From NCBI RefSeq assembly GCF_010450875.1, contig NZ_CP048421.1:1-64000 (forward strand): DNA of 64,000 bases. The letters run 5' to 3'. The position numbers and the translations under genes are program-made. This stretch comes from Sphingomonas insulae. Its GTDB lineage: Bacteria; Pseudomonadota; Alphaproteobacteria; Sphingomonadales; Sphingomonadaceae. This document shows, piece after piece, positions 5,473 to 53,722 of this stretch. The notes under the pieces are model-generated. The model did no database searches. It had not been told where the DNA came from and saw only the letters and a program-made list of their open reading frames with translations. Each line of letters starts with the position of its first letter. Within the stretch, counting starts at the first letter, position 1.

Positions 5473-6403
5473 GGCGCCGCTATAGCAACTCTTCCAAGCG
5501 GGCAAATATCGCTGCGGGGTGTTCACCCGCTTTGGTGAAAATCTAGATTTAAGTGATTAACCGGTCACGCTGCGACTGTTTCCTACGCAGACTGCGCGGG
5601 TACTAGACCAAAAATTTTGCCCGCCCGCAGACGCAGCAGCAAGTCCGCGGAGCAACGCGCCCGCACCGTCAGAAGTAAACTAGGGATCGTGCACGAGGTC
5701 ACCGTGTCATTGATCGTTAGCATTCAAGCAAGTGCGTGCCGCTGGCACAGACCGGAGCACCCCTGCCCCTAGCACGCCTGCGCTACCGCACCCGCAACGA
5801 TAGAGATGTCATGTAACGCGAACCGCAATTAAGGGTTGTCAGCGTTTTCGTCTCTCCTTTTATTCACTGCCTCCTACTAGCGAACAGTCCCCGTTCAGTT
5901 CGTTGGCCCGATTGCGTCTTATCTCGACTGTACCGGCCGAATTCATCACACCGCGCTCGAACCTGGAGATGTAAAGGCCGGATATGCGGCGACAGCCCGG
6001 ATGAAAGACAAATGATCAGACGGTCTTACAACGCACCGACGGTTGTTCTTCACAAAAGACGTTTGTTTATCTGGACGAGCACGACAGGCGTGCAAGGGGT
6101 GGCCGTTCATCGGATGGTCGGTCACGCTTTACGAAACGGACCTGACCCGGCCTTTCGAAGATGTGAACCTCGCGAAAAGGGATGTCAGCGCTTCGGCCAT
6201 GACAATTCACGGTGGTAACACCGGCCTGATCTGCGCTCCGGGCGATTATCTTGTTCGAATGAGAAGCTGATCGGTCGCGTGCTCGAGGGCACGGGACAAA
6301 GAAATTTCTAGCCTTGTGTAGCTTCCTCTGCGGTCACGCGTTTGGGCTAATAACGACTGTGTCAGCAGTGCAGGCCAGGCGCATCTCCAGCGAAAGAATC
6401 CTC
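5473..6403. other. Non-coding spacer
   Basis: About 930 bp without a supportable gene. Two overlapping frames at 6012-6218 and 6043-6270 lack homology I recognise, coding-type third positions and ribosome sites, and I do not call them. No clear repeat or RNA gene was seen. Confidence 0.5.
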
Positions 6404-7528
6404 ATGGCCGACACGATCTCCCATTCAGCGATCCGTTACACGACGGCTATCGAAAAGCCGGAGGCGGATGAGGGGGAAACCATCAGGGGCCTGAACGAGC
6501 AGTTCCATCTTATTCAGGAGCAGACTGCCAAGGATTATGGTTCGGCCGTGCGCGGCGTCCATGCCAAGGCGCACGCCATCGTGAAGGGCCGGATCGAAGT
6601 TCTGCCCGGGTTGACGGCACCGCTGGCGCAGGGGCTTTTTGCCACGTCGGGCTCCTACGATGTGCTCATGCGGTTCTCAACGTTGCCGGGCGATATTCTC
6701 GACGACAGCATCAGTGTACCGCGCGGGGTAGCGATCAAACTGTTCGACGTTTCTGGCGACCGCCTGCCGGGTTCCGAGACGGACGCCACGCAGGATTTTG
6801 TTTTCGTCAACGGCCCTGCCTTTGCCGCCCCTACGCCCAAGGCGTTCCTCGCCAATCTGAAGATGCTGGCCAAGACCACTGATACGGGCGAGGGTCTGAA
6901 GAAGGCGCTGTCGGCGACGTTACAGGTAGTTGACGCCGCACTCGAAACGATCGGGGTCCAGAGCCCTACGGTCGAGACGCTGGGTGGTGCGCCGAACACT
7001 CACCCGTTGGGCGAGACCTATTTCACGCAGGTGCCGTTTCGCTACGGCGACTATATCGCCAAGCTCTCGCTGGCACCGGTTTCGCAGAACATGACGGCGC
7101 TGACGGGCGACAAGGTCGAAACCTCGGGTCGCCCCGATGCCCTGCGCGAGGATCTGGGAGAGGTGCTTATCGAGCAGGACTGCGTGTGGGAGCTGCGGGT
7201 CCAGCTTTGCACGGACTTGGAAAAGATGCCGATCGAGGATGCTTCGGTGGTCTGGGATGAGAAGAAAAGCCCGTTTGTCCCGATTGCCCTCCTTACCGCT
7301 CCTGCGCAGATCAGCTGGGAGCATGGCGCCAGCGATGGTCAGGACAAGGCGATCGCATTCAGCCCGTGGCACGGTCTTGCTGCGCATCAGCCGATCGGGG
7401 GCGTTAACCGGGCGCGCAAGCCGACCTATGAGGCGTCCGCCAAATTTCGCGGCGAATTCAACGGGTGCCCGATGCACGAGCCACGTTCGCTTGGGGATGT
7501 TCCCGCAAAGGCCATGACGGTCGATTGA
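6404..7528 (+). CDS. Catalase-family haem protein
   Basis: A 374-aa member of the catalase-fold family distinct from the classical monofunctional catalases (the y4iL-like group). Visible catalase-type landmarks: RGVHAKAHAIVKG, with a His at the position of the distal catalytic His; LMRFSTLPGD; SVPRGVAIKLFDVSG; TQDFVFVNGPAF; and a late FNGCPMHEPRSLGD. Members probably bind haem and act on peroxides or lipid hydroperoxides, but activity has to be inferred. ATG 6404 is chosen; the frame extends 30 codons upstream without family similarity. It is followed by an ECF sigma gene whose frame opens before this one ends, suggesting a joint stress-response role. Confidence 0.85.
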   Translation: MADTISHSAIRYTTAIEKPEADEGETIRGLNEQFHLIQEQTAKDYGSAVRGVHAKAHAIVKGRIEVLPGLTAPLAQGLFATSGSYDVLMRFSTLPGDILDDSISVPRGVAIKLFDVSGDRLPGSETDATQDFVFVNGPAFAAPTPKAFLANLKMLAKTTDTGEGLKKALSATLQVVDAALETIGVQSPTVETLGGAPNTHPLGETYFTQVPFRYGDYIAKLSLAPVSQNMTALTGDKVETSGRPDALREDLGEVLIEQDCVWELRVQLCTDLEKMPIEDASVVWDEKKSPFVPIALLTAPAQISWEHGASDGQDKAIAFSPWHGLAAHQPIGGVNRARKPTYEASAKFRGEFNGCPMHEPRSLGDVPAKAMTVD

Positions 7529-7623
7529 AACCATGCGGGAGAGCAGCGCTCTCCCACCGCCCTCGGCACATGCAAAAATTATGTGCTGAGGTCTCCACTC
7601 TCCTGCGTTCACATGAGGGGCCG

Positions 7624-8322
7624 ATGGCACAGCCGTCAGAGCGTTCGTCAGATCGTTTTTTACACAGGGCGCTACCGGCGGTCACTTTGATGCGATCGAT
7701 CTCGGCTTCTCCCTCTGAAACATATCGGAGAGCGAATACCGGCTCTGTTCTGACGCAGTCGGCCGTCAGCGAGCCGAGGCTGCACCTGATCGAGCAGTTG
7801 GTCCGAACAGGTCAGGGGGAACAGGATGCATTTCGTACGGTGTACGTTCTGACATCGGCCAAGCTGTTTGGCATATGCCTGCGCGTTTGCGGGGACCGCA
7901 CCGCTGCCGAAGACGTGCTACACGATGTCTACATGATCGTCTGGAAGCGCGCAGGATCGTATGACCCGTGTCTCGGCAGTCCGATCAGCTGGCTGACAAC
8001 CATCGCCCGCAATCGGGCAATCGACTGGCGCCGCAATCAGACAAGACAGGCCGCCTTGCCGCTCGACAACGCGCCCGACCTGCCTGACCCAGCGATTGAT
8101 ACCGAGGCGGGAATGCTGCTCGATGAGGCATCGCGGGGGATTTTCGCGTCGCTTGCCGCACTGGAAAGCCATCAGGGTGATGCGATCCGCAACGCGTTCT
8201 TCCATGGCTTTACCTATGCCGAGCTTGCCGAACGCCATTGCGTGCCGATCGGCACAATGAAGAGCTGGATACGCCGCGGCTTACAACAGATGCGCCGCAA
8301 TCTCGAATTAGCGGGCCATTAG
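7624..8322 (+). CDS. ECF-type RNA polymerase sigma factor
   Basis: An extracytoplasmic-function sigma factor that directs RNA polymerase to a stress regulon. Region 2 is clear (AFRTVYVLTSAKLFGICLR, AEDVLHDVYMIVWKRAGSYDP, SWLTTIARNRAIDWRRN), as is region 4 with its helix-turn-helix (FFHGFTYAELAERHCVPIGTMKSWIRRGLQQMRRNL). Starts at ATG 7624 (232 aa, GAGGGG just upstream) and ATG 7690 (210 aa) are both possible; the conserved part begins around 7780. No anti-sigma gene lies beside it. The catalase-like gene directly upstream hints at an oxidative or singlet-oxygen stress regulon, which is inference. Confidence 0.88.
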   Translation: MAQPSERSSDRFLHRALPAVTLMRSISASPSETYRRANTGSVLTQSAVSEPRLHLIEQLVRTGQGEQDAFRTVYVLTSAKLFGICLRVCGDRTAAEDVLHDVYMIVWKRAGSYDPCLGSPISWLTTIARNRAIDWRRNQTRQAALPLDNAPDLPDPAIDTEAGMLLDEASRGIFASLAALESHQGDAIRNAFFHGFTYAELAERHCVPIGTMKSWIRRGLQQMRRNLELAGH

Positions 8323-8721: not shown

Positions 8722-9090
8722 GTGTCGATGAAAGAAGCAAGTTTCGAAGCTGTCACCCTGTCCGCGCTGGAGGCAATGAGCGTCGAAGAGCTGGACGCCT
8801 TGCCATACGGAGCGCTTGGCTTCGGGCCGGACACCATTGTGCAGCGATACAATGCGACTGAGGCGCGCATGTCTGGCCTCGACCCGTCGACAGTGGTCGG
8901 TGTGCCCTTCTTCGATGCGGTCGCGCAATGCATGAACAACTTCATGGTCGCGCAGCGGTTCGTCGACGAGCCGCAGCTTGATGAGATCGTCCCTTATTTG
9001 CTGACGTTGCGGATGCGTCCGACGAAGGTCCGCCTGCGGCTTCTGGCGGATCCCGGCATGCCGCGCCACTACATCCTCATCGAACGATAA
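8722..9090 (+). CDS. pyp: Photoactive yellow protein (PYP)
   Basis: A 122-aa blue-light photoreceptor of the PAS fold; PYP carries p-coumaric acid thioester-linked to a cysteine. Aligned by eye with the 125-aa Halorhodospira protein, the key residues are kept: Tyr43 (Y42) and Glu47 (E46), which hydrogen-bond the chromophore phenolate, in QRYNATEARMSG; Cys70 (C69), the attachment site, in FFDAVAQCMNN; and Met98 (M100) in RMRPTKV. Thr50 is Ser, and Arg52 is Leu. GTG 8722 is chosen because GAGGAG lies seven bases upstream; ATG 8728 and ATG 8695 fit worse. It is the first gene of a coupled operon with cyclic-di-GMP enzymes and the chromophore ligase. Confidence 0.93.
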   Translation: MSMKEASFEAVTLSALEAMSVEELDALPYGALGFGPDTIVQRYNATEARMSGLDPSTVVGVPFFDAVAQCMNNFMVAQRFVDEPQLDEIVPYLLTLRMRPTKVRLRLLADPGMPRHYILIER

Positions 9091-9100
9091 GACCGGCGCC

Positions 9101-10390
9101 ATGACCGAAAAGTCGAGTGAGGAGCAGCTCCTCGAATTCCTCTACGCCTGTCCGGTCGGACTGATCGAATGCGACCTTGCCGGCGACATTGGGCTGATGA
9201 ATCCGCACGCCATGCAGCACCTGCTGCCGCTGGCCGGGCCCCGCGATGCCAGCAATCTGTTTGCAGCATTCGAGCAGCACGCGCCCGAGCTGCGTAGCCT
9301 TGCTGCGACCTACACACCTGCAACCGGCAAGATCTGCGATGGTCACCGGATCTTCGTCGATCTGGGTCGCGGCCGGCGCACGCAGGCACCGACGGTCTTG
9401 GCCTGTACGATCGTGAAGCTTGGCCCCGACCGACTGATGGTCACGCTGTCCGATATCAGCCATCAGGTGGTGCAGGAGGAGCGACTCCGCCAGGCGGACA
9501 CGTGGTTTGCGACCCTGCTCGACGGGGTCAACGCCTATGCCTCGCTCGCTCTGACGTCGGACGGTCAGATCGCCTCCGCCGGTGCGTGCTTCACGCACCA
9601 GACCGGGCATGACAATGCGGCCGTCGTAGGTCGCCATCTGGCCGATATCCTCGCCAACGATGGTACCGGGGGCGACCTGCAGCTGAATGAGCAGCTGGAA
9701 ATTGCCGGCAGGGACGGATGGCATCTGCAGGAAGGGTGGCAGAACCGCGCCGATGGCGAACGCTATTGGTGCCAGCGCCTCGTTGTTGCGCGATCGGACG
9801 GGGACGGACTTGAACCGACCGGCTATTCTGTCGTGCTGCGCGAGGTACCACGGCGTGAGGCCGCCGCAGAAGACATGCGCCGTCTTCTCACCTGCGATCA
9901 CCTGACCGGCGCGTCCAATCGCCGTCATTTCGCCAATGTCATGGAACGCGAGCACGCACATTGGCGCGAGTTGCGCCAGTCGCTGTCGCTGATCGTCCTC
10001 GACCTTGATCATTTCAAGGCAGTCAACGACACCTATGGCCATCCGGCAGGCGACGCGCTGCTGTGTAAGGTCGTGACGGCCTGTGCAGGTCTGTTGCCGC
10101 CCCGTGGCATTTTCGCCCGGCTGGGTGGCGAGGAATTCGGCGCACTGTTGCCACGCCATGATCAGGATCAGGCTCTCGCCCTTGCCGAGCAGATGCGCGA
10201 GGCGATCGCAGCCCTCCACATCAACACCCAGCACGGCGCGCTGACCGCTACCGCCAGCCTTGGCATTGCCACGCTGGACGAAGCGGGCGGATCGATCGAT
10301 ACGCTCATCAAACTGGCCGACGAACGGCTTTACGCCGCGAAAAACGCTGGCCGGAATCAGGTCTATCGGCCGCAGGCCTGCGCCGCATGA
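9101..10390 (+). CDS. PAS-PAS-GGDEF diguanylate cyclase
   Basis: A 429-aa soluble protein predicted to make cyclic-di-GMP from two GTP. Two PAS-like sensor regions lie at about 10-120 and 135-250, joined by a helical linker to a GGDEF domain at 262-424. The active site is intact: LDLDHFKAVNDTYGHPAGD at 300-318 for metal and GTP, and GGEEF at 342-346. The usual inhibitory RxxD site before GGEEF is absent (PPRG), so product inhibition at that site is unlikely. It lies 10 bp after pyp and overlaps the ligase gene by 4 bp. It is the obvious candidate effector of PYP, perhaps through its PAS regions (inference). Confidence 0.93.
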   Translation: MTEKSSEEQLLEFLYACPVGLIECDLAGDIGLMNPHAMQHLLPLAGPRDASNLFAAFEQHAPELRSLAATYTPATGKICDGHRIFVDLGRGRRTQAPTVLACTIVKLGPDRLMVTLSDISHQVVQEERLRQADTWFATLLDGVNAYASLALTSDGQIASAGACFTHQTGHDNAAVVGRHLADILANDGTGGDLQLNEQLEIAGRDGWHLQEGWQNRADGERYWCQRLVVARSDGDGLEPTGYSVVLREVPRREAAAEDMRRLLTCDHLTGASNRRHFANVMEREHAHWRELRQSLSLIVLDLDHFKAVNDTYGHPAGDALLCKVVTACAGLLPPRGIFARLGGEEFGALLPRHDQDQALALAEQMREAIAALHINTQHGALTATASLGIATLDEAGGSIDTLIKLADERLYAAKNAGRNQVYRPQACAA

Positions 10391-11544
10391 CGTCGGCGCC
10401 ATCGCGCACGGTCCTGCGCCAGATAGCCTGCGCGGTCGTCGCGGCAGAGGTGCGTCGCCAGCGTGGTCGTGACCTGCCGATGCCGCATGACTGGCCGGAA
10501 ACGATGGCAATCGGCGACGAAGGCCTTGGGCTTGACTCGCTCGAACAAATGGGCGCGCTTGGGGCACTCGCGGAGGCATTCGACCTCGATGAAGCCTCGC
10601 CGGGCAAGGAGCCGCCGCAGACAGTCGGGGCATGGATCGACTGGATCATGCAACGGCACGCTACGGGTGACGGCAGGATCACCGTCACTACCTCGGGCTC
10701 GACAGGATTACCCGTGCCCTGCACGCATGCAATGTCGGAGCTCGTCATGGAAGCGCGCGACCTGGCAAAGCTATGTTTGGGGCGACGCCGTGTAGTGACC
10801 CTCGTCCCGGCGCATCATCTTTACGGGATCATCTGGACGGCGATCCTGCCCGCCATTCTCAACGTTCCCGTCGTCGTTCGCCAAGCCGGCGCAGCTCTGG
10901 ATCTTCTCCCCGGCGATCTCGTCGTGGCGGTGCCGGACCAGTGGCGGGCCATCGCGCGGCTTACGCGCTGCTTGCCCGACGACATCGTCGGCGTCAGTTC
11001 GGCAGCACCATTGCCGGACGCGCAAGCCGGCGACCTGCTGGCGGCCGGCCTGGCGCGTCTTATCGACATCTATGGATCGTCGGAAACCGGTGGGATTGCC
11101 GTTCGTGAATGGCCGGCCACGGCCTATCAACTGCTGCACCGCTGGCATCTGTCGGAGCACGAAGGCGACTGGCAGATCCTTGATGAGAAGGGCGCACGTC
11201 ATGCCCTGCCGGATCATATCGAACGGGTTGGTGATCGACGCATCCGTCCCATCGGCCGGCGCGATGGAGCCGTGCAGGTCGGCGGCCACAACGTTTGGCT
11301 CGGTCGGGTCGCCGACGTGCTGTGCCGGATTGAGGGCGTGGCCGAGATTGCGGTTCGAGTGGGTAGCAACGGTCGGCTGAAAGCCTTCATCGTGCCCGAC
11401 GCGCAGCACGATGAAGCCGAACTGTTGAACGCACTCGAACGCGCCGCGGCGGATCGTCTGTCCGTTGCGGAACGCCCCCGGAACTGGCGCTTCGGGCCCG
11501 CCCTGCCACGCAACGCCATGGGCAAACTGGAAGACTGGGCATGA
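10387..11544 (+). CDS. pcl: p-Coumarate:CoA ligase of the PYP-activation family
   Basis: A 385-aa adenylate-forming enzyme that should activate p-coumarate to the CoA thioester used to load PYP Cys70. It is shorter than plant 4-coumarate ligases, as is usual in the PYP-associated subfamily. Motifs: the P-loop TTSGSTGLPVP at 101-111, DIYGSSETGGIA, GRRDGAVQVGGHNVWLGRV, and the C-terminal catalytic-lysine segment RNAMGKLEDW. The N-terminal 90 residues contain GLGLDSLEQMGALGALAEAF, resembling an acyl-carrier domain with a phosphopantetheine-type DSL serine (Ser51). ATGA overlaps link it to the cyclase before and the EAL gene after it. This neighbour strongly supports the PYP call. Confidence 0.92.
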   Translation: MTSAPSRTVLRQIACAVVAAEVRRQRGRDLPMPHDWPETMAIGDEGLGLDSLEQMGALGALAEAFDLDEASPGKEPPQTVGAWIDWIMQRHATGDGRITVTTSGSTGLPVPCTHAMSELVMEARDLAKLCLGRRRVVTLVPAHHLYGIIWTAILPAILNVPVVVRQAGAALDLLPGDLVVAVPDQWRAIARLTRCLPDDIVGVSSAAPLPDAQAGDLLAAGLARLIDIYGSSETGGIAVREWPATAYQLLHRWHLSEHEGDWQILDEKGARHALPDHIERVGDRRIRPIGRRDGAVQVGGHNVWLGRVADVLCRIEGVAEIAVRVGSNGRLKAFIVPDAQHDEAELLNALERAAADRLSVAERPRNWRFGPALPRNAMGKLEDWA

Positions 11545-12347
11545 TGCATTCACTCATCAGCACTCGCGATATAGGGCGGTCGAAGCCCGTGTTGCTGAAC
11601 GATGCCTGCACCGGTTGTCGCAGCGGCACGCCGCTACCGATCGACATCACCATGGCATTCCAGCCGATCGTCGACATTCGCGCCGGGCGCGTGTTCGCCT
11701 ACGAAGCACTCGTACGCGGCGTCGCTGGTGAGACGGCCGGCGAAATCCTGTCCAGCGTTTCCGCCGAGATGGTCTACAAGTTCGACCAGGCATGTCGCGT
11801 GAAGGCGATCGAGCTGGCCGGCCGGCTTTTCGCGCCTCAGGATGACGCCAAGCTCTCGATCAACTTCATGCCGAACGCCGTCTACGAGCCGGATGCGTGC
11901 ATCCGGGCATCGCTGGCCGCGGCGAAGCGGGTGGGCTTCGACCCGCGTCGGCTGATGTTTGAATTCACCGAGAACGAACGCATGGACGACGTGGCGCACG
12001 TCCAGCGCATTATCGACGCTTATCGGGCCCGCGGCTTCACCACCGCCATCGACGACTTCGGAGCGGGCTACGCCGGCCTTGGCCTGCTCGCCGACCTTCG
12101 CCCCGACATGCTAAAGCTGGATATGGCTCTCATCAGAGGAATTGATAGCTCGACGTCGCGGCAGGTGATCGTTGCCGGGGTAGCGCGTATCGCCGAAGCG
12201 CTGGGCATCCGCTGTATCGCCGAGGGCATCGAAACCTCAGCCGAGCTTTGCACCTTGCGTGACCTCGGTATATCCCTGTGCCAAGGGTATCTCCTTGCGC
12301 GACCTGTCGTCGCAAGTCTGCCGCCGTTCGTCATACAGGCACTGTGA
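11541..12347 (+). CDS. EAL-domain cyclic-di-GMP phosphodiesterase
   Basis: A 268-aa single-domain EAL protein predicted to hydrolyse cyclic-di-GMP to pGpG. The catalytic set looks complete: YEALVRG (EAL at 55-57), SINFMPN, FEFTENE, IDDFGAGYAGL (171-), a downstream LKLDMALI lysine, AEGIET and CQGYLLARP. A short N-terminal extension has a CTGC pair (Cys23, Cys26). It overlaps the ligase stop (ATGATG), so cyclase and phosphodiesterase are made from one transcript with the photoreceptor. No sensor domain is attached, so its control must come from a partner or from expression. Confidence 0.92.
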   Translation: MMHSLISTRDIGRSKPVLLNDACTGCRSGTPLPIDITMAFQPIVDIRAGRVFAYEALVRGVAGETAGEILSSVSAEMVYKFDQACRVKAIELAGRLFAPQDDAKLSINFMPNAVYEPDACIRASLAAAKRVGFDPRRLMFEFTENERMDDVAHVQRIIDAYRARGFTTAIDDFGAGYAGLGLLADLRPDMLKLDMALIRGIDSSTSRQVIVAGVARIAEALGIRCIAEGIETSAELCTLRDLGISLCQGYLLARPVVASLPPFVIQAL

Positions 12348-12405: not shown

Positions 12406-12547
12406 ATTCGGAACGGGAGGCGTGCAGTCAGCGTCAGCGCGCCCGTCGGTCGTGGGCTGTATCGAAACGATCGAGTTTCGGGAATGGCCAAGCCGATCAT
12501 GAACGGCACGGATCAGTGGCATGCTGCCCGTTGAGTTGCTTTCAAGG

Positions 12548-12588
12548 AAGAGGGGCGTTACATCATCCGCCACGCCCCCTCTTTTTTT
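12548..12588 (+). terminator. Rho-independent terminator of the PYP operon
   Basis: AAGAGGGGCGT (12548-12558) pairs with ACGCCCCCTCTT (12572-12583, one bulged C), followed by a run of seven T. It lies 200 bp after the EAL stop and reads on the plus strand; the T run is on the correct side only for that strand. Confidence 0.85.
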
Positions 12589-14576: not shown

Positions 14577-15926
14577 TTATTGATTTGGTGTCTGTAGGTA
14601 ACGTTGCATCAAACTATCGGCATGCCGTCGCAAAGCGATGACCTCGCTGAGTACAGACTCACTTTGTTCATCCACAATCCTGGCGCGGGCACCGATCTGG
14701 CGGACGGCGAAAACTGCATCGCCGATCTCTTCGCCCACATGCGCTCGGGTTGCGCTCTGTAGACCTGCCGTAGCCTTGATCCTGCCAGAGCTCGCTTGCA
14801 TGGATTCGACACGTTCGGCGAGTTTGTCGCATCGTTCGACGGCCCGCGTGACTGTTTGCTCGATCGCCCGCAGTTCACTCAAAATATGATCTGTCGCTTC
14901 CGCAGTCGCCCCTGCCAATAGGCGAACCTCGTTTGCCACCACGGCAAAGCTTCTGCCGCTGTCTCCGGCTCTTGCTGCTTCGATTGACGCATTTAGTGCG
15001 AGCATCTTGGTCTGCGACGCAATGGCAGATATCTCGCCGGCAACTGAACCGATTCCCTCGAGATGAGATCCGAGACCCGAGACAGTCACCCGCATCGTTT
15101 CAGTATCATCCGAGACATGCTCGATGTCGCGGGCAACTCCTTTCAATATTGTCTCAACCTCGCCGCCCATGAGGACAAGCTGCCCGACACCCTGACCCGC
15201 CGCATCAGCGCGCAGCTCGCCATCGGCCGCCAGCGCGGACAATTCCTTGGCCTGTTGTTCAAGCTGCGATGCCGCGTCGCTTAGCCGTTCGGCTACCGAT
15301 CGCACCTGCTCAGCTTCCTGCTGTCGTTCCAGTCGCAGACGGCGAGCTATAAGACGCTCCATTACCATATCGGCAAGCATGGTCAGGTGGGCGCGCTCCT
15401 GCCCGCTAAACCCACCGGGTCTTGGCGCGGGATCAAAGATGCACAAGGTGCCAATGTTAAAACCAGCCGGGGTGGTCAACGGTGCTCCGGCGTAAAACCG
15501 GATATGTGGTGGCCCCGTGACCAGTGAATTGTCGGCAAAGCGCGCGTCTGCGGCGGCATCGGGCACCACCATGACCTCGCCCTCTAAAATGGCGTGCCCG
15601 CAGAAAGCAGCGTCCCGGCCAGTTTCACAGGCCTCGAGCCCGACGCGAGCCTTGAACCACTGCCGTTCGGCATCGATAAGCGAGACCGTGCTGGTAGCGA
15701 CTTCAAACAGGCTCTGCGCCAGCCTGACCACGTCATCGAACACCTGCTCCGACGCGGTGTCGAGAATTTGATAAGCTGCCAACTCGGCAAGACGTTCGGC
15801 CTCATTGCCGGGAACTGGAAAGGGCCGTTGCTCCAAAAGATTCCTCACCGATCGAAGATCAAATTTGACCCGTCCACATTTATCACGGCTTGCGAACGGC
15901 ACACGGCTTGCCACGCCGCCCGGCAA
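14577..15926 (-). CDS. Soluble GAF-domain methyl-accepting chemotaxis-type protein
   Basis: A cytoplasmic chemoreceptor-like protein of up to 449 aa with no membrane segment. The GAF sensor covers roughly 35-200 ([66 protein letters not shown]). The signalling domain follows, with the hairpin-tip signature [19 protein letters not shown] and [14 protein letters not shown], so it could bind CheA/CheW. The full frame begins at TTG 15926; an in-frame GTG at 15848 is an alternative and neither has a good ribosome site, so the first 30 residues are uncertain. A GAF protein of the same type occurs at 39286. Confidence 0.88.
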
Positions 15927-39285: not shown

Positions 39286-39834
39286 ATGATGATTGTCACC
39301 GCGCGCGATGACGAGAGACGAATGCTGAAGAGCCTGTTTAGAGAGCGAAAACGCTCTCATGCCGTTCGTGGCTTAAGCATTCTAGGTTCTGCTCCCGAAC
39401 CCATATTCGATCGTTTCGTCGCCGCTGCGGCCAACGCATTCGATGCGCCGATCGCGCTTATGTCACTGATCCATGATGATCAACAGTGGTTCAAGGCGGG
39501 GCACGGCCTCGTCATTGATTGCATTCCGCGCGACAGCGGGTTTTGCAGCTTTACGCTTGATCGGCCCGATATAATGGAGACCGCCGACCCTCAAGCCGAC
39601 CCGCGGTTCGCCAACCTGCCTGTTGTCGCCGGCGAACCTCACATCCGCTACTATATCGGAGCGCCGCTTCGACGAGTAAGCGGTATCGATGTAGGGGCGT
39701 TATGCATCCTCGACACCAAGCGACGATCCCCCGCATCGCCAGACCAGAAAGCCTATCTAATCGGGCTGGCACGGCAGGCGTCGACGGCGCTTGAGGCGCG
39801 ATTGGATCTGCTCCAGCGAGGTGCCGCAGCATGA
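39286..39834 (+). CDS. GAF-domain sensor protein
   Basis: A 182-aa single GAF domain: APIALMSLIHDDQQWFKAGHGL, RDSGFCSFTL, AGEPHIRYYIGAPLRRVSG and DVGALCILDTKRRSP, similar to the GAF of the chemoreceptor at 14577. The ligand is unknown. Its stop overlaps the ATG of the MHYT-GGDEF-EAL gene (ATGA), so it is likely an input for that protein. Starts at GTG 39283, ATG 39286 or ATG 39289 are indistinguishable. Confidence 0.85.
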   Translation: MMIVTARDDERRMLKSLFRERKRSHAVRGLSILGSAPEPIFDRFVAAAANAFDAPIALMSLIHDDQQWFKAGHGLVIDCIPRDSGFCSFTLDRPDIMETADPQADPRFANLPVVAGEPHIRYYIGAPLRRVSGIDVGALCILDTKRRSPASPDQKAYLIGLARQASTALEARLDLLQRGAAA

Positions 39835-41885
39835 TGCGGGTAGCACTTTGCATAACGCAGGAGCATGATCTGCGCCTGGTTGGGCTGGCCTTGCTAATTT
39901 GCCTGATCGGTTCTGCCGCCACCGTTCAGCTCTTCCATCGGGTGAGGGCGGCCGCGGGCTACAGTCGCTTTGGGTGGGTGGTGCTCACCGCAGTCAGCGC
40001 AGGGACCATGGTATGGGCAACGCATTTCGTCGCCATGATGGCGTTCCGCACGACTGCGCCAGTGGTTCTGGATCCCATCCTCACACTTTCTTCGCTCCTT
40101 GCAGTGACCTTCCTTGCGGTGCCCGGGTTGGCAATCGCTGTGCAACGTCGTTCCTGGAGCGGCGCGGCGGGTGGATGCATCATCGGTGCTGGCATCGCCG
40201 TGATGCACTACGTTGGCATGGCGGCATACCGGGTGGACGGTATCGTGACATGGGACTGGTGGTATGTTGCCGCGTCGGTAGTGCTCTCGTGTGGGTTTAC
40301 CGCTGCCGCATTCGACAGCCTTAACCGCCGCAGCCGGCTGCGCAACGCGAAGGCGATAGGGCTGCTCGCCCTGGCAGTTGCCGCACTGCATTTCACCGGC
40401 ATGGCCGCCATGCAGGTAACCGTGTTGCAACTCGGTCAGGGGCTGTCGGATCTAACGATGGTCGCTCTCGCTATTACCACGGCGGTTGCGACCTGTATCA
40501 TCGTTGGTTGCGCAGCGATCAGCGCCCTGATCGACGGTCACACCCAGACCGAATCCTATACGCGGCTGCGCCGGATGGCGATGCACGATGGCCTGACCGA
40601 TCTGCCGAACCGCATCAGTTTTATCGAAGAGCTTGAGCAGCGTTTTCTGATCAAGGGCGGTTACTCCTGCATGGCCGTGGTCATGATGGACCTATCACGC
40701 TTCAAGGTCGTAAACGACACCTATGGCCATCAAGCGGGCGACCAGCTGCTGGTTGCGCTAGCCGCCCGCCTTACCGCCTTGCTGCAGCCGGGCGAATGTG
40801 TTGCACGCCTAGGCGGTGACGAATTTTCGGCGGTCGTCTCATACCAGGATGCAAGCGACCTCCATGATTTTCTGAGCCGGTTACGCGCTGCATGCGACGC
40901 GCCTTTCGTTTTCGACCGGTTTACTGCGGCAATATCAGCGAACATCGGCGTCGCGCTCGCCGTACATGACGGGTTTGATGCCGACGTGCTGCTCGCCAAG
41001 GCGGACCTTGCCATGTACCGCGCCAAATCCGCGCATTCCGGCGAACCCTGCTTCTACGATAGTCAGATGGATGACGCGATACGGGAGCGTCGCGAGTTGA
41101 TCGCTGACCTGAGGGCTGCGCTGGATACAGAATCCTTCGAGCTTCATTATCAGGTCCAGGCAGCCCTCCCTTCGGGGGAAATTTCGGGTTACGAGGCCCT
41201 GGTTCGGTGGAGGCATCCAACCAGAGGAATGGTTCCGCCATCGGAGTTTATCCCGCTGGCGGAAAAGAGCGGAGACATAGTACCGATTAGCATCTGGATT
41301 TTGCGCCAAGCATGCTTTGAGGCCGCCTTGTGGCCCAACAGACATCCCGTCGCCGTCAATCTTTCGCCGATACACCTCGCCGACCCGCGACTCGTGGATA
41401 CGGTACGGTCAGCGCTGGAGGACAGCGGCCTGCCGCCCGAACGGCTGTCGCTTGAGCTGACTGAAAGCGCCATCATCCACGACCGCCGGTTCGCGCTGGG
41501 CCAGCTTAAAGCTCTCAAGGCCATGGGTATCGCCATCGCCCTAGACGACTTTGGCGTGGGGTATTCGTCCCTCGATGTTCTTCGATCGTTCCCGTTCGAC
41601 CGCATTAAGCTAGACTCGTCTTTCGTGGCTGAGATCGAACGTGACGACCAAGCAGTAGCGATACTTCGCTCGGTTGCGGGACTGGGCCTGACGTTGAACA
41701 TCCCGGTACTGGCCGAGGGCGTCGAACAGCCCGCACAACTGTCGATTGTCGCAAGGGAGGGCTGCTCGGCGATCCAGGGCTACCTAATAGGTAAACCGTC
41801 GCGGACGTTGGCCGAGCCAGACCGCGTTCGTCGTACGATGTCGCTGAAGCCCTGCGTCGTTGATGATGGAGCCGCAGTCGCATAA
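39831..41885 (+). CDS. MHYT-GGDEF-EAL cyclic-di-GMP enzyme
   Basis: A 684-aa inner-membrane protein. The N-terminal seven-helix MHYT sensor has its repeated motifs WATHFVAM, MHYVGM and LHFTGM, proposed to bind copper and sense O2, CO or NO. A GGDEF domain follows (LTDLPNRISF, NDTYGHQAGD, ARLGGDEF) and then an EAL domain (YEALVRW, ALDDFGVGYSSLD, IKLDSSFV, LAEGVE). Both active sites look intact, so the net direction of cyclic-di-GMP turnover cannot be told; no RxxD inhibitory site is seen (QPGE). Coupled to the GAF gene upstream. Confidence 0.95.
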   Translation: MMRVALCITQEHDLRLVGLALLICLIGSAATVQLFHRVRAAAGYSRFGWVVLTAVSAGTMVWATHFVAMMAFRTTAPVVLDPILTLSSLLAVTFLAVPGLAIAVQRRSWSGAAGGCIIGAGIAVMHYVGMAAYRVDGIVTWDWWYVAASVVLSCGFTAAAFDSLNRRSRLRNAKAIGLLALAVAALHFTGMAAMQVTVLQLGQGLSDLTMVALAITTAVATCIIVGCAAISALIDGHTQTESYTRLRRMAMHDGLTDLPNRISFIEELEQRFLIKGGYSCMAVVMMDLSRFKVVNDTYGHQAGDQLLVALAARLTALLQPGECVARLGGDEFSAVVSYQDASDLHDFLSRLRAACDAPFVFDRFTAAISANIGVALAVHDGFDADVLLAKADLAMYRAKSAHSGEPCFYDSQMDDAIRERRELIADLRAALDTESFELHYQVQAALPSGEISGYEALVRWRHPTRGMVPPSEFIPLAEKSGDIVPISIWILRQACFEAALWPNRHPVAVNLSPIHLADPRLVDTVRSALEDSGLPPERLSLELTESAIIHDRRFALGQLKALKAMGIAIALDDFGVGYSSLDVLRSFPFDRIKLDSSFVAEIERDDQAVAILRSVAGLGLTLNIPVLAEGVEQPAQLSIVAREGCSAIQGYLIGKPSRTLAEPDRVRRTMSLKPCVVDDGAAVA

Positions 41886-42576: not shown

Positions 42577-45312
42577 TCAGAATTTTACACGTGCTCCGCC
42601 CGTGAAGCGCCGACCGAAGTCACACTCGCTGAGTAGCACGCCTCCGAGCGTCTCGCGCTTTAGTGTCGCATGTGTGACGTTGCTGGCGTTGAATGTCAGC
42701 GCCAAGTTGCGTGTGACATCGAGATTGGCCGAGATGTCGAGCTGTCCATAGGCTTCGCCGCGATCGCCGTCTCCGAAGGTCCCGGTGGTGCTGTTCACGG
42801 CCGCGCTGCGATAGGAATAGTTGGCACGGATGCCGAAGCCGTTCTTCTCGTAATAGCCGCCGAGATTGTAGCTTCGCTTGGACACGCCGGGGATCGGCAC
42901 GCGAGGACCGCCCGCGACCGTCTGCACGTCGCTGACGTTGAGCAGCGTCACGTTGGAGGTCACGCCCAGGCCGTCGAAAGGCGAAGGCAGCATGTCGAGC
43001 GGCACCTGGGCATTCAGTTCCAGGCCCTTCACCTTGCCCCCAGCGCCATTGTCCGGCCGCGATGTGCGAAAGTCGAGTGTGACCGTGCCCGTCAGGGTCG
43101 ACCGTATCGTGCGCGTCTCGACCGAGGTCGTGTCGACGATGAAGTTCTTCACATCCTTGTAGAAGACGGCTGCCGAAAGCAGGCCTGTGCGACCGTAATA
43201 ATATTCGAGCGACAGATCCGCCTGGTCCGCCAAATAGGGTCGTAGAGAGGGGTTCTGCGTCGTGATGGTCCGCACGTTCGCGTTGATCGTCACCGTCGGC
43301 GACAACCGGTTGAGGTCGGGTCGCGTCATCGCCCGCGCCAGCCCGACACGAACGATCAGATTGTCCGCCAGCTCGTAGCGCGCGTTCAGGCTCGGCAGCC
43401 AGTTGCTGTAGCGGTTTCGAAACGCGATCGGCCCGCTATCGGGCACGAGCAGCGTGATACTGTCGTTCTGGAGTGTCGCGTTGGCGATGTCTGCGCCGAA
43501 ACCGTCCGACGACACGCGCGTGCGGACGTAGCGCAGGCCGATGTTGCCGACGAGGCGGTCGTCGGCGCTGGCGAAGTCGGCGCGGGCATAAGCGGCCAAG
43601 ACCCTCTCATCGACGGTGAACTGGTTGGTGCGGTTCAGCACCAGCGTGCCGCGCGCGAGCACGTCTTCCAAGTTCAGGTTCGCGAACAGCTTGGAGTAGT
43701 CGGCAACCAAGAATTTGCCGAGCCCGTCGCCGATAAAGCGCGAATAATCGACCTCCTTCAGCAGGCCCGCCGCGGAGATCGCGCCGCCCTCGACGCCGGG
43801 AAGGTACGGTGTGCCGTAGACAGAGGCGAGCACCTGCGGGCCGACCGTATATTGCGGGCGCGGACCGAACTCGATCTCGTCCTCACCGGCGTAGCCGCCG
43901 ATCTTGACCGAACGCAGGAAGCTGTCGCCGAAATCGTACTTCGCGTCCAGGCGCACGGCCTTGTTCATCTCGTATCCCTTCTGGCCACGGAAAGACGAGA
44001 AGCTGCGGAAGTAATAGGTGCTCGGATCGAGCGAGTTATAGCCGCGCGTATAGGCGATGTCGGGCACGGCGCCCAGATCGTCAACGAGCGTATACGAGGC
44101 CGACGCGCGTGAGATCGGCACGAAGGAGTCGCGGTCGGAGAGCGTCCGCACCGATCGGCCGTAGGTCCCCTCGCCCGTGACGGTCAGATTGCCCGCCTTT
44201 GCCTCGCCGCCGATCGCGAAGTTCAGCGTCCGGTCCGCGATGGTCCAATTGAGATTGTTGGTCTGGTGATCCACTCCATCCGCATCGAGGAAGGTGAGCA
44301 GATTGCCTGCGCCTACCGTGCTGCCGCGGACGGCGCCGGTCGGGCCGCCGATGTTGGTCCAGCGCAGCTGGTGCTCGAAGCGGTTGAAGCCGTCGGTGAA
44401 CCACGTCGCCAAGCCGTCGGCATAGAGATTGATGTCCGGCGACGGCTTCCACTGCAAGCCACCGACGATCGCCTTGCGTTCGAAATCGCCCTCGTCCGAC
44501 ACGAAGGTCGTCGCGTGATCGAACCCGAAGGTCGTGTCCGATCGCACGCCATCGCGATTGTAGTCGAAGCCGCCGGTGGCGTTCTCCCTGCGCTGTTCGA
44601 TGCCGTAGCCGGTGAACCCGGCCTGGATCACCTTGCGTCGCTCGTAGTTGACGCCGAGATTCACGCCGAAGGTCCCGTCGCCGAACACGCGATTGACGAA
44701 GGCGGAAACGTGGGGGGTCAGCTTCTCGGGATTGCTCTCGTAGAGGGCTTCCGCGCTCAGGGCGACGACGTTGCGCGCGACATCGACCGGGCGATTGATG
44801 CGGACGTTAATCGTTGCGGAAATGCCGCCGTCGATCATGTCGGCGGTCGGCGTTTTGCTTACCTCCACCGCGCTGACGAAGTCGGTCGGCATGGAGGTGA
44901 ACGAGAAACCGCGCGTCCCGCTTGGTGAAGTAAGAACGCGGCCGTTGTAAAGCGTGCGCGTGAAGTTCTCAGACAGGCCGCGGACGCTGACGCCGCTGCC
45001 CTCGCCCTTGTTGCGGGTGATCTGCACGCCCGTCACGCGCTGAAGGGATTCGGCGAGATTGCGGTCAGGGAACTTGCCTATGTCCTCGGCCGAGATCGCT
45101 TCGACCAGGTTGGGCGCATCGCGCTTGATGGCGATGGCTTCTTGAAGGCTGCGCCGGATCCCCGTGACAACGATGTCGGCGCTGTCGGCCTCGTCTCCAG
45201 CCGTTGCCACCGGCGTGGGCGCCTGAGCGGCGCTGTCCTGCGCAAAGGCAGGTGCCGCGGCGCCTGCCACGGCCATCGCGATCAGAGATGCGGCTGAGCG
45301 AAGCGTCTTCAT
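42577..45312 (-). CDS. TonB-dependent receptor
   Basis: A 911-aa outer-membrane active transporter. Signal peptide to AFAQ, then the plug domain (DIVVTGIRRSLQEAIAIKR, VEAISAEDIGKFPDRNLAESLQRVTGVQI, GSGVSVRGLSENFTRTLYNGR), and a 22-strand-type barrel ending in the C-terminal aromatic FTGGARVKF. It belongs to the sphingomonad/Xanthomonas type that imports plant oligosaccharides. It sits next to the L-fucose operon, so fucose-containing oligosaccharides are the likely cargo. Start ATG 45312 has AGGAGGGG upstream. Its leader carries three 15-bp tandem repeats. Confidence 0.93.
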   Translation of the reverse strand: MKTLRSAASLIAMAVAGAAAPAFAQDSAAQAPTPVATAGDEADSADIVVTGIRRSLQEAIAIKRDAPNLVEAISAEDIGKFPDRNLAESLQRVTGVQITRNKGEGSGVSVRGLSENFTRTLYNGRVLTSPSGTRGFSFTSMPTDFVSAVEVSKTPTADMIDGGISATINVRINRPVDVARNVVALSAEALYESNPEKLTPHVSAFVNRVFGDGTFGVNLGVNYERRKVIQAGFTGYGIEQRRENATGGFDYNRDGVRSDTTFGFDHATTFVSDEGDFERKAIVGGLQWKPSPDINLYADGLATWFTDGFNRFEHQLRWTNIGGPTGAVRGSTVGAGNLLTFLDADGVDHQTNNLNWTIADRTLNFAIGGEAKAGNLTVTGEGTYGRSVRTLSDRDSFVPISRASASYTLVDDLGAVPDIAYTRGYNSLDPSTYYFRSFSSFRGQKGYEMNKAVRLDAKYDFGDSFLRSVKIGGYAGEDEIEFGPRPQYTVGPQVLASVYGTPYLPGVEGGAISAAGLLKEVDYSRFIGDGLGKFLVADYSKLFANLNLEDVLARGTLVLNRTNQFTVDERVLAAYARADFASADDRLVGNIGLRYVRTRVSSDGFGADIANATLQNDSITLLVPDSGPIAFRNRYSNWLPSLNARYELADNLIVRVGLARAMTRPDLNRLSPTVTINANVRTITTQNPSLRPYLADQADLSLEYYYGRTGLLSAAVFYKDVKNFIVDTTSVETRTIRSTLTGTVTLDFRTSRPDNGAGGKVKGLELNAQVPLDMLPSPFDGLGVTSNVTLLNVSDVQTVAGGPRVPIPGVSKRSYNLGGYYEKNGFGIRANYSYRSAAVNSTTGTFGDGDRGEAYGQLDISANLDVTRNLALTFNASNVTHATLKRETLGGVLLSECDFGRRFTGGARVKF

Positions 45313-45340
45313 GTCTATCCCCTCCTGTATCGGCCCGTCC

Positions 45341-45385
45341 TCGGCAGGACCGTTCTCGGCAGGACCGTTCTCGGCAGGACCGTTC
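45341..45385 (-). repeat. Three 15-bp tandem repeats in the receptor leader
   Basis: TCGGCAGGACCGTTC occurs three times without a gap (45341, 45356, 45371) with a partial fourth unit, 29 bp before the TonB receptor start on its 5' side. It could be an operator array, an mRNA regulatory element or slippage-prone DNA. Confidence 0.8.
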
Positions 45386-45634
45386 TCGTGAACCCGGCGT
45401 TCCGCGAAGGTTCAGCCTTCATCGGAGACGCTATTGTTTATCACTGGTGGCATATGTTTGTATATATGGAATCTGCATTCGCGAGGAATTTGTCTCTGGA
45501 GCGAGGTCATTGTATCGAGCGATTGCTGACGCTGCTCCAAAGAAGCATGTTTCACGCGTGCAAGTAACTCTGCCGGCCCGTTGAGGGTGGCCGATGGCCA
45601 GGAGCTCGCCGCGACACCCAGTCGCCGTCGCGAC

Positions 45635-46459
45635 CTAGGAGATGCGGTAAACGTTCCGCGCAGTGTCGCCGAGCACGCAGGCGCGATCATCCGCGTCAAG
45701 GCTCGACAACAGGTCGTCCGAGGCGCGAGCCCACTCGGCATAGGAACCGGCCAGCAGCAGCACCGGCCAGTCACTCCCCCAGAGGGTGCGTGACGAGCCG
45801 AACACATCGAGCACGTGCTCGGCATAGGGCCGGAGATCGTCGACAGCCCAGCCGGGCTCCGCTTCCGTCACGAGCCCGGACAGCTTGCACGCGACGTTCG
45901 GCAGGCGGCCAAGGGCTGCGAGATCGCGTGCCCATGGCTCGTGCGAACGCTGGGCAATGGCGGGCTTGCCGCCATGGTCCACCACGATCCGGAGCGTCGG
46001 GTACGTGGCGGCTATCCGGCCGATCGCTGGTAGGTGATGCGGCCGGATCAGCGCGTCAAAGACCAGATCGTGCTCGACCATTGCGAGCAGGGCGGGCGCG
46101 GCGGCAGGTTGCTCGATCCACTCGGCAGGCAGGTTCTGCAGCATCGGGCGCAACCCGCGCAGCTTGGGGTTGCGCGCCAGCCGTGCGATTTGTGCGGGCG
46201 CGTCGGCGGCACGCAGGTCGACCCAGCCCACGACCGCGGCGATCGACGGAGTTCTCGCTGCCAGATCGAGCAGCCATGCGGTATCCAGGTCGTCCGGCTG
46301 CGACTGAACCGCCACGGTCGCGGCAATGCCGAGCGCATCACGTTCCCCGTCCAGATCGCGGGGCAGGAAATCGCGGTGGATCGGGACCAGATCGGGCGTC
46401 GGCCAGACGTGACCGTTGCGACCGATCCGCCAATAATGCTGATGCGCATCGACGCGCAT
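45635..46459 (-). CDS. Amidohydrolase-family sugar lactonase (L-fuconolactonase-like)
   Basis: A 274-aa TIM-barrel amidohydrolase of the L-fuconolactonase/L-rhamnono-lactonase type. Metal-binding HxH motif at the N-terminus (VDAHQHYW), PKLRGLRPMLQNLPAEWIEQ, RIVVDHGGKP (His), CKLSGLVTEAE and the C-terminal Asp in LWGSDWPV. It should hydrolyse L-fucono-lactone to L-fuconate. ATG 46459 overlaps the stop of the dehydrogenase by one base. Last gene of the fucose operon. Confidence 0.9.
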   Translation of the reverse strand: MRVDAHQHYWRIGRNGHVWPTPDLVPIHRDFLPRDLDGERDALGIAATVAVQSQPDDLDTAWLLDLAARTPSIAAVVGWVDLRAADAPAQIARLARNPKLRGLRPMLQNLPAEWIEQPAAAPALLAMVEHDLVFDALIRPHHLPAIGRIAATYPTLRIVVDHGGKPAIAQRSHEPWARDLAALGRLPNVACKLSGLVTEAEPGWAVDDLRPYAEHVLDVFGSSRTLWGSDWPVLLLAGSYAEWARASDDLLSSLDADDRACVLGDTARNVYRIS

Positions 46460-47469
46460 CAGACCTCCACGATGGCCTTGATCACACCCGCCTGCGGCTC
46501 CATCCACCGCGGTAGGGCGGAGGGCAGGTCGGCCAGCGGCGCGCTGTGCGTGTGCATGGCGGCGATCGGAACCGCGCCCGCGCGCATCGCCGCGATCACC
46601 GCATCGAAGTCGTCCCGCGTCGCATTGCGGCTGCCGAGAAGCGTCATCTCGCGCTTGTGGAACTCGGGATCGCTGAAGGTGATGTCGGCGCTTACCACCG
46701 ACACCAGCACGTAGCGACCGCCATGTGCGACATATCCGAAGCCTGTCGTCATCGCCGCGGCGCTGCCGGTGCAGTCGAACACGCAGTCGAACATGTCGCC
46801 GCCGCTCAGCGTCAGCAGCCGCTCGGCGACGCCCTCGCCCGGATCGCTACTGGCGCACGCGCCGAGCTCCTCAATGCAGAAGCGCGCGCGCGCCGCGTTG
46901 CCGTCGAGCACCGTGACGCTGGCACCGGCGAGAGCGGCGAAGAGGGTGACGGCCATGCCGATTGGCCCGGCACCGACGACGAGCAGGCGCTCTCCCGCCG
47001 CGACGCTGCCGCGCACGACCGCATGGTGGCCGATCGCCAGGAACTCGACCATCGCGGCGGCGTCCAGCGTCAGGCCGGTCGCATCGACGACGAACTGCTC
47101 GTCGATGCAGAGATACTCCGCCAGACCTCCATCCCGGTGGACGCCCAGCACGGCGATGCGGGCACAGCAATTGGGCTTGCCTGCACGGCATGCGACGCAC
47201 TGCCCGCAGGAGAGATAGGGGATGACGCACACCGGCTGTCCTGGCGCGAACGCGCTTCCCTCATCACAGTCGACGACCTTGCCGGCGAGCTCGTGGCCCA
47301 TGACGCGCGGGTAGGACAGGTACGGCTGGGTGCCGCGGAAGATGTGGTAATCGGTCCCGCACACGCCCACGCGACGGATGCGCAGCAGCACCTCGCTGGG
47401 CCTGCGCTGCGGCTCCGCAACCTCTTGCACCACCAGCTCGCCCGGCGTGCGGCAGACCACCGTTTCCAT
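46459..47469 (-). CDS. Zinc-binding alcohol dehydrogenase
   Basis: A 336-aa medium-chain dehydrogenase. Catalytic zinc site: VGVCGTDYHIF (Cys), GHELAGKV (His-Glu); structural-zinc cysteines in LSCGQCVACRAGKPNCC; NAD fold VVGAGPIGMAVTLFA near 165. It resembles L-galactonate/L-fuconate-type (LgoD-like) oxidoreductases. In this operon it could oxidise L-fucose or L-galactose or a later ketoacid; two SDRs are also present, so its exact step is unclear. One-base overlaps with both neighbours (TGATG). Confidence 0.9.
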   Translation of the reverse strand: METVVCRTPGELVVQEVAEPQRRPSEVLLRIRRVGVCGTDYHIFRGTQPYLSYPRVMGHELAGKVVDCDEGSAFAPGQPVCVIPYLSCGQCVACRAGKPNCCARIAVLGVHRDGGLAEYLCIDEQFVVDATGLTLDAAAMVEFLAIGHHAVVRGSVAAGERLLVVGAGPIGMAVTLFAALAGASVTVLDGNAARARFCIEELGACASSDPGEGVAERLLTLSGGDMFDCVFDCTGSAAAMTTGFGYVAHGGRYVLVSVVSADITFSDPEFHKREMTLLGSRNATRDDFDAVIAAMRAGAVPIAAMHTHSAPLADLPSALPRWMEPQAGVIKAIVEV

Positions 47470-48737: not shown

Positions 48738-48741
48738 CGGA

Positions 48742-50806
<2,065 letters not shown>

Positions 50807-50810
<4 letters not shown>

Positions 50811-51568
50811 AGCAGCGTCCAGCCCCCGTCGATCACCGCGGTCGTGCCGGTCGTGAAAGCGCTCTCGTCCCCCGCCAGATGCACCGCCAGTGCGGCGATC
50901 TCGCTCGTGCGGCCCAGCCGCCCGATAGGCTGGCGCCCGGCAAAGGCGTCCAGGGTCTCCTCGAAGCTCGTGCCGTCGCGCTCCGCCTGCGCGCGCACGC
51001 GCTCGATCAGCGAGGGCGATTCCACGGTGCCTGGGCAGATCGCGTTGCAGCGGATCCCGCGGCCGACATAGTCGGCGGCGATCGCCTTGGTCAGTCCGAT
51101 CACCGCCCCCTTGGTCGCCCCGTAGGCGAGCCGGTTCGGCACGCCGATGATCGACGACGCCACCGACGCGATGTTCACGATCGAACCGCCGCCGCGCTCC
51201 AGCATCGAAGGCACATAGGCCTTGGCCACCAGCATCGTCGCCGTGACGTTCAGCGCGACCGCGGCATCCCAATCGTCCTCCGTGCAGCCGAGCAGGTCGC
51301 CGGCGTGCACGACCCCTGCCGCATTGACGAGGATGTCCACCGCGCCGGTGCGCTCCGGAAGCGCGGCCACGCCGTGACGATCCGTAAGGTCGAGGACGAT
51401 CGAGCTGCTCAGCCCGGCGAGCAGGTCTGCCTCGCGGTCCACAGCGACGACCGAGGCGCCCTCCGCCGCAAGGGCATCGTGAATGGCGCGTCCGATCCCC
51501 TGCCCGGCCGCGGTCACGACAGCGCGCTTCCCCGCCAATCTGCCCGAAGTCATCCGTCCCCCGTTCAT
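50807..51568 (-). CDS. SDR oxidoreductase, probable 2-keto-3-deoxy-L-fuconate dehydrogenase
   Basis: A 253-aa [37 protein letters not shown], Ser in [35 protein letters not shown] and [10 protein letters not shown]. Its similarity pattern matches dehydrogenases that act after fuconate dehydratase to give 2,4-diketo-3-deoxy-L-fuconate. First gene of the minus-strand operon; ATG 51568 or ATG 51553. The hydrolase for the last step is not in this window. Confidence 0.87.
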
Positions 51569-51654
51569 GCTTTTACTAGTGGAATATACTTGCGATTTGC
51601 ATCAAGGCAACCCCCGCGATTGCGGCCCTGCTGCAGTGCAGGTAAGCGTAGGCG

Positions 51655-52455: not shown

Positions 52456-52468
52456 GCGGAACACGCGT

Positions 52469-53632: not shown

Positions 53633-53722
53633 CGGCCCTCCACATGTTGACGCCCGCAAGCCACTATCATATGCGGAACGCACTTGCGCCAGAGAAAGCG
53701 CGCTTGCGAAAGGGAGAGGCGC

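Follow-up and report, generated by a model that had tools for sequence, protein, structure and literature searches.

What does a photoactive yellow protein (PYP) that is encoded as a separate protein signal to, and where does it obtain its pigment? The signal output of free-standing PYPs is called a gap in passages of both Xing 2022 (PMC9664959) and Dohmen 2025 (PMC12826048). The question is raised by a run of four genes in a 64,000-nucleotide stretch of Sphingomonas insulae DNA (the window), which encode a PYP homologue, a PAS-PAS-GGDEF cyclase, a PYP-type p-coumarate:CoA ligase and a stand-alone EAL protein. We favour, with moderate confidence, the explanation that this unit belongs to the published clade C PYP type, relays blue light to cyclic-di-GMP and works with a scavenged pigment. 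Our confidence was lowered marginally because the partner-gene searches scored only part of the candidates.

Conserved pairing of PYP and cyclase

An earlier note on this DNA had described the four genes as a compact operon. All four open reading frames (ORFs) are present at the positions given there and with the junctions described (a 10-bp gap between PYP and cyclase, an ATGA overlap between cyclase and ligase, and an ATGATG overlap between ligase and EAL gene), and family scans upheld their identities. The spacing points to a single transcript, and the unit fits the pyp operon type described in Dohmen 2025, a predicted operon that combines pyp with GGDEF, pCL and/or EAL genes.

In order to define the constant part of the unit, we analyzed a sample of 263 Sphingomonas genomes, with thresholds of E <1e-50 for PYP, 1e-70 for the full cyclase and 1e-40 for the ligase; the best 16 candidates per genome were scored for PYP and the best 6 for ligase and cyclase, so that a weak copy could be missed. 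PYP was identified in 33 genomes (three further weak hits, in G069, G128 and G133, were left out), and the cyclase in exactly the same 33. At 35 of the 36 places where PYP is encoded, the cyclase gene lies at most 60 bp away; one of the two PYPs of G040 (contig 4) stands without this cyclase, which counts against the relay. The ligase was found in 32 of the PYP genomes (all but G033) and in none of the 230 others, and an EAL match lies within 4 kb of PYP in 22 of the 33, with none near it in the other 11. These counts reveal that PYP and the cyclase form the core of the unit, that the ligase is nearly obligate and that the EAL gene is an optional accessory. The EAL match beside the PYP unit of G160 (contig 19, 18039-18764), included among the 22, holds an in-frame stop, which is in line with the EAL gene being dispensable.

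A second sample consisted of 80 loci (the best 80 of 105), retrieved with patterns from PYPs like that of the window, and is thus not a sample of the whole family; it shares some strains and species with the 263 genomes, so that the two counts are not independent. A GGDEF gene lies directly downstream of pyp in 72 of these loci, comprising all 32 from Sphingomonas and 40 of the 48 others. Among the 32 Sphingomonas loci, 31 contain the ligase and 23 have an EAL gene nearby. In the nine Methylobacterium loci the EAL gene is located upstream of pyp, and several Burkholderiales loci showed no ligase gene and have an EAL or GGDEF-EAL protein downstream. Chance falls far short of explaining the arrangement, since the same gene order recurs across the genus.

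The conserved synteny for which the earlier note had proposed a search therefore exists, and the identities of the genes, the intact catalytic residues and the almost perfect co-occurrence bear out its view that a PYP light sensor, a maturation enzyme and cyclic-di-GMP enzymes are combined in one unit. Both the GGDEF and the EAL protein have intact motifs, but the emphasis of the note on opposing cyclic-di-GMP enzymes overstated the role of the EAL protein, which 11 of the 33 PYP genomes lack near PYP. The same figures bear on a different wiring, in which the cyclase is not the main target of PYP, which acts on the EAL protein or on both enzymes. The proximity of EAL genes in 22 genomes and their position in the Methylobacterium loci would agree with such a wiring; however, the EAL gene is not near PYP in 11 genomes, the cyclase is present in all 33, and the EAL domain is the sole Pfam domain found in the EAL protein, and we consider this wiring improbable. 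In all 33 PYP genomes PYP is matched exactly by one cyclase family, which singles out one candidate partner.

Table 1. Coordinates of the unit and of its flanking signals in the window
Feature	Position	Strand	Remarks
pyp, photoactive yellow protein homologue	8722..9090	+	GTG start, 122 aa; Tyr42, Glu46, Cys69, Ser50, Gln68, Leu96
PAS-PAS-GGDEF diguanylate cyclase (by motif)	9101..10390	+	429 aa; GGEEF = residues 342-346; without RxxD inhibitory site
Short PYP-type p-coumarate:CoA ligase	10387..11544	+	385 aa; P-loop Ser103/Thr106, Arg291, Asp293, C-terminal Lys380
Stand-alone EAL phosphodiesterase (predicted)	11541..12347	+	268 aa; eight catalytic positions intact; optional unit member
Hairpin and T run, probable terminator	12544..12587	+	folding energy compared with shuffles; may also serve convergent gene
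Upstream box CTTAG-N7-TTAA	8667..8682	+	two half-sites 11 bp apart, 40-55 bp 5' of pyp start

Residues and domains of the four proteins

In an alignment of the window PYP with those of the 80 loci, all 81 rows have the chromophore residues Tyr42, Glu46 and Cys69 as well as Leu96 and Met100. At positions 92, 96 and 119 the window PYP has Val, Leu and Ile (alignments read by eye). According to the relevant passages of Xing 2022 (PMC9664959), clade C is marked by the loss of Phe92, Phe96 and Trp119 and the retention of Met100. By these residue marks the window PYP is of the clade C type. Its nearest solved structure by sequence is PDB 1mzu, the PYP domain of Ppr (E 8e-15). Among the 26 main-group Sphingomonas rows, 20 have Ser at position 50, the window PYP being one of them. 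Absorption lies at 432-434 nm in the two Ser50 PYPs that have been characterised, although this trend has its exceptions (passages of Dohmen 2025, PMC12826048). Because of Ser50, an absorption near 434 nm appears a better guess for the window PYP than the 446 nm of the earlier note, which may be off. Several public records label PYPs of the window type, from Sphingomonas, Caballeronia and one Comamonadaceae strain, as 'phosphonate transporter', which hides them from annotation searches.

The GGDEF domain of the cyclase scores 139 bits and carries a GGEEF motif, from which the protein is predicted to be a diguanylate cyclase. Its PAS modules are weak by sequence: PAS1 gave no match in the family scans, and PAS2 matches Pfam PAS_4 only below the family cut-off (E 0.005), although it exceeds that of TIGR00229 sensory_box (28 bits, cut-off 22.9). 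An AlphaFold model (pLDDT 80.4) nevertheless contains two PAS-like alpha/beta units (residues ~20-118 and 146-248) followed by the GGDEF domain; in the PDB it is matched best by DosP and by the PAS-GGDEF-EAL part of PA0861, and a LOV-activated cyclase ranks tenth. Among 49 cyclases the mean pairwise identity is 0.52 for PAS1 (95% interval 0.47-0.57), 0.52 for GGDEF (0.47-0.57) and 0.43 for PAS2 (0.38-0.48), and in the first 20 rows (19 from Sphingomonas and 1 from Devosia) the values are 0.78, 0.74 and 0.68, respectively, with overlapping intervals for PAS1 and GGDEF. PAS1 is thus conserved as strongly as the catalytic domain, which would be expected if PYP docks there. At the place that we take to be that of the RxxD inhibitory site, presumably a common but not a required feature, the window cyclase has PPRG; by eye, RxxD is present in none of the 26 main-group Sphingomonas rows and in 6 of 7 rows of a second group.

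The ligase has PF00501 and PF13193 domains above the cut-off, which identifies it as an adenylate-forming CoA ligase. Of the positions that we take as marks of such enzymes (P-loop Ser/Thr, Asp and catalytic Lys), Ser103 and Lys380 are each kept in 53 of 54 aligned rows (one gap each) and Asp293 in all 54. In the EAL protein (EAL domain, 171 bits) we assumed the catalytic list to be the Glu of EAL, Asn, Glu, Asp-Asp, Lys, Glu and Gln; these eight positions, those of an EAL phosphodiesterase, are intact in 56 of 56 rows, namely the window protein and, from each of 55 loci, the best EAL ORF on the plus strand; some of these ORFs are not operon members. The window's genome encodes a relative of the operon EAL protein elsewhere (58% identity), and a match at E 1e-60 occurs in 130 of the 263 genomes of the genus. 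The operon copy therefore looks like a recruited relative of a solitary EAL protein that is widespread in Sphingomonas. One such solitary protein (L121:3866-4645, G000 contig 4) has an N-terminal CxxCR stretch like that of the operon EAL protein, and similar proteins are common in the genus.

Several of the results weigh against a light-driven relay. The window PYP scores 59.9 bits (E 2e-16) against TIGR02373 photo_yellow, below the equivalog cut-off of 143.05, and the ligase scores 282.1 bits against TIGR02372 (4-coumarate:CoA ligase, PYP type), below that of 334.7. With a pLDDT of 75.5, the model of PYP reaches medium quality, its best matches being PYP structures with a TM score of ~0.66, and that of the cyclase has a pTM of 0.46. 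Gln68, found in 67 of the 81 PYPs, replaces the pocket proline, and the alignment revealed a three-residue deletion after Cys69 in the window PYP. The conservation of PAS1 could equally reflect a small-molecule ligand site. According to the passages concerned, no clade C PYP had been characterised as of Xing 2022 (PMC9664959), and no PYP listed as studied in Dohmen 2025 (PMC12826048), where clade names are unused, is named as clade C.

The low PYP and ligase scores, Gln68, the deletion and the lack of a characterised clade C member by 2022 would all suit a PYP homologue that is no longer a light sensor but a small scaffold or a binder of another ligand, with the ligase serving another acid. 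The TIGRFAM PYP model was built on a seed of only four PYP homologues (passages of Xing 2022, PMC9664959), and the TIGR02372 cut-off is exceeded in none of the 263 Sphingomonas genomes (best 328.5 bits); to judge from these scores, the window ligase is a close relative of the PYP-type ligase rather than that equivalog. The invariance of Tyr42, Glu46 and Cys69 in all 81 rows and the co-occurrence of a PYP-type ligase in 32 of 33 genomes argue against a loss of light sensing, which we consider quite improbable.

Pigment supply and the proposed relay

In the classic pyp operon, p-coumarate is provided by a tyrosine lyase (passages of Dohmen 2025, PMC12826048). A profile search of the window's genome detected no aromatic ammonia-lyase of family PF00221, so the claim that the unit contains sensor maturation holds for the ligase but is incomplete, as no lyase making the pigment was found in this genome. 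PF00221 is present in 92 of the 263 genomes of the genus, but in only 2 of the 33 with PYP versus 90 of the 230 others (Fisher p 6.5e-5, kinship ignored). As this statistic ignores kinship, the contrast may partly carry shared ancestry. The two exceptions have the selectivity motifs SHAAG (G062) and YHLASG (G117), which we take to be HutH-like and TAL-like, respectively. A third ligase gene is located ~1.5 kb from the TAL-like lyase gene of G117 (L116, contig 24); it is of the PYP type and clusters there with the lyase and with GGDEF-EAL and PAS-like ORFs, on a contig without a PYP match. When the G117 lyase was used as a tblastn query, no match was obtained in the 80 loci.

Since no PF00221 lyase was found, the p-coumarate pigment is probably taken up from outside, perhaps from plants; uptake is named as a possibility in Dohmen 2025 (PMC12826048, in the passages concerned). 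No p-hydroxycinnamoyl-CoA hydratase-lyase scored above the cut-off in the window's genome (best 135 bits, cut-off 276), and the ligase is thus unlikely to serve catabolism by that route. The picture outside the genus is less favourable to uptake, as PF00221 was detected in 23 of 43 PYP genomes tested (a count that includes draft and metagenome-assembled genomes and does not separate HutH from TAL). A hand comparison that scored L053, with its ligase 3.2 kb away, as lacking one divided these into 17 of 22 genomes without a ligase in the locus and 6 of 21 with one; the latter ratio points toward scavenging, even though these six do contain a lyase.

The same relay might instead use p-coumarate that is made in the cell, by an enzyme that belongs to another family than PF00221 or has diverged too far for detection. 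Only one enzyme family was searched, and lyases are frequent in the related PYP genomes of other genera. However, the search that detected PF00221 in 92 Sphingomonas genomes also recovered a 284-bit full-length match in Devosia (cut-off 27.3), and 32 of the 33 PYP genomes retain the ligase, although a lyase was found in no more than two. We therefore consider endogenous synthesis unlikely, though less so than the alternatives weighed above.

If the pigment is scavenged, its supply would itself be an input, and the photoreceptor would work only when a phenolic of another organism is present. As no pigment synthesis of a known kind was found and yet a dedicated ligase is kept, a bolder reading, which we consider less likely than not, is a coincidence gate, in which PYP would be light-sensitive only where the plant phenolic p-coumarate is free and would report to cyclic-di-GMP that the cell is both on or near a plant and in blue light. 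If true, such a gate would decide whether cells on a leaf surface attach or move. A plant origin of the strains is hinted at only by some strain names and by the pectinesterase and GH95 genes of the window.

In the relay that we favour, the ligase would activate external p-coumarate as a CoA thioester, as in the known ligase family, and the pigment would be attached to Cys69 of PYP. Blue light would isomerise the pigment and alter the PYP surface, and PYP would then influence the neighbouring cyclase in trans, through the PAS part of that enzyme, and change the activity of its GGDEF domain, as co-occurrence and adjacency suggest. Where the EAL protein is present it would clear cyclic-di-GMP, so that the signal resets. 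We lean slightly toward light lowering cyclic-di-GMP, by analogy with the PYP of Idiomarina, which is reportedly a biofilm case. The light response, the PYP-cyclase contact, pigment uptake, the sign and the output are all steps that we infer.

The earlier note had considered the switch perhaps undescribed, and this does not hold. The relevant passages of Xing, Gumerov and Zhulin 2022 (PMC9664959) report clade C PYPs, with the same clade marks, that adjoin GGDEF and EAL genes. Dohmen 2025 (PMC12826048, relevant passages) lists 113 pyp operons, with GGDEF in 29, EAL in 22, pCL in 42 and TAL in 7, and hence with the same gene kinds as the window unit. Both describe stand-alone PYPs beside such genes and propose light-controlled cyclic-di-GMP. 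Sphingomonas is unnamed in the main text of either, and their relevant passages contain no genome-wide test of lyase absence, nor, in the case of Dohmen 2025, of co-occurrence. The operon type is therefore already published. The present analysis adds that PYP and the cyclase are strictly paired, that the EAL gene is optional and that no lyase was found; the last point turns the uptake remark of Dohmen 2025 into a testable prediction.

Other known systems resemble the unit in part, as far as the passages concerned describe them. The PYP of Idiomarina loihiensis (cited in PMC9664959) likewise has an adjacent GGDEF gene and a link to biofilm, but belongs to clade A. In the Ppd fusions (PMC9664959, PMC12826048) PYP is also joined to cyclic-di-GMP enzymes, through a PYP-phytochrome-GGDEF/EAL chain, whereas the window PYP is a separate protein without phytochrome. 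The pyp-pCL-TAL operon of H. halophila (PMC12826048) similarly provides PYP with its own ligase; in the window unit no lyase was found and cyclic-di-GMP enzymes are added. The blue-light sensor of PMC12172448 is a LOV kinase, not a PYP. In the LOV-activated diguanylate cyclase PDB 8c05, light also controls GGDEF via a PAS-type sensor, but there the photosensor is a LOV domain inside the enzyme.

Regulatory signals and genomic setting

The box upstream of pyp (Table 1) appears to be conserved in most Sphingomonas loci, which makes it a candidate regulator site. Of 33 Sphingomonas upstream regions, that of the window among them, 20 contain TTA[AG]-N7-TTAA at a nearly constant spacing from pyp, against a mean of 0.08 in shuffled sequences; of 48 loci outside the genus a single one has the pattern, at a different distance. 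The direct half-sites of the box lie one helical turn apart, a spacing known from OmpR/CtrA-type regulators. Control by CtrA, suggested by the half-site spacing, was not supported when we compared the box with what we take to be the CtrA consensus: the window's genome contains 6 copies of CTTAG-N7-TTAA versus 7 of its reversed control, and for TTAR-N7-TTAAC the figures are 3 versus 8, so that the box is not enriched. No promoter of the EcfG type, for which we assumed the consensus GGAAC-N16-GTT, was present in 18 upstream regions, and a simple scan revealed no sigma-70 promoter (1.2 expected).

The rho-independent terminator described at the end of the operon is present as a hairpin with a T run (-18.6 kcal/mol, z -2.65; 3 of 200 shuffles do as well), but its assignment is less certain. 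It is located ~200 bp past the stop codon of the EAL gene, and beyond it a convergent ORF ends at 12621, so that it may serve either side; a simple terminator scan did not list it, giving three other sites where 3.3 were expected.

At E 1e-15 the four genes flanking the unit in the window gave no match in the 80 loci, and at 1e-5 three weak ones (the PYP control hits 80 of 80), which indicates, at the level of sequence comparison, that the cassette has no fixed place. Related PYPs were found on 12 plasmid records, which include Methylobacterium, Rhizobium, Polymorphobacter (lichen) and a leaf Comamonadaceae strain, and insertion elements are near in both records opened. Such mobility would be expected if the genes stayed together mainly through shared cassette transfer, without a tight functional circuit; the strict PYP-cyclase pairing, with ligase and EAL gene varying, argues for function, and we regard transfer as a very improbable explanation. 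The Polymorphobacter plasmid has the order PYP, cyclase, EAL; a catalase-family peroxidase near its PYP unit is probably a coincidence. On the Caballeronia plasmid pSBC1_3 (L132) a PYP-cyclase-EAL set is convergent with a second pyp and an AMP-binding gene, between insertion elements.

The window itself is part of contig C3, and the 3.36-Mb contig C4 is separate from it. A gene of the sigma-70 family (ECF-like, 7465-8322), with no match in the 80 loci at E 1e-15, immediately precedes the pyp promoter region and lies next to one for a 404-aa protein without a Pfam match at 1e-5 (6314-7528). A GAF-MCP chemoreceptor (14577-15926) is encoded ~2 kb from the operon, and an MHYT-GGDEF-EAL protein (39831-41885) is a further cyclic-di-GMP protein on the same contig. 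The region 42577-56164 encodes a TonB receptor, an amidohydrolase, a pectinesterase (52469-53953) and a GH95 glycosidase (53684-56164), all Pfam-checked, as well as ORFs that by appearance resemble sugar dehydrogenases, a transporter and an IclR regulator. It is perhaps a cluster for the utilisation of plant cell-wall fucose and pectin, and its pectinesterase and GH95 genes are in line with plant contact.

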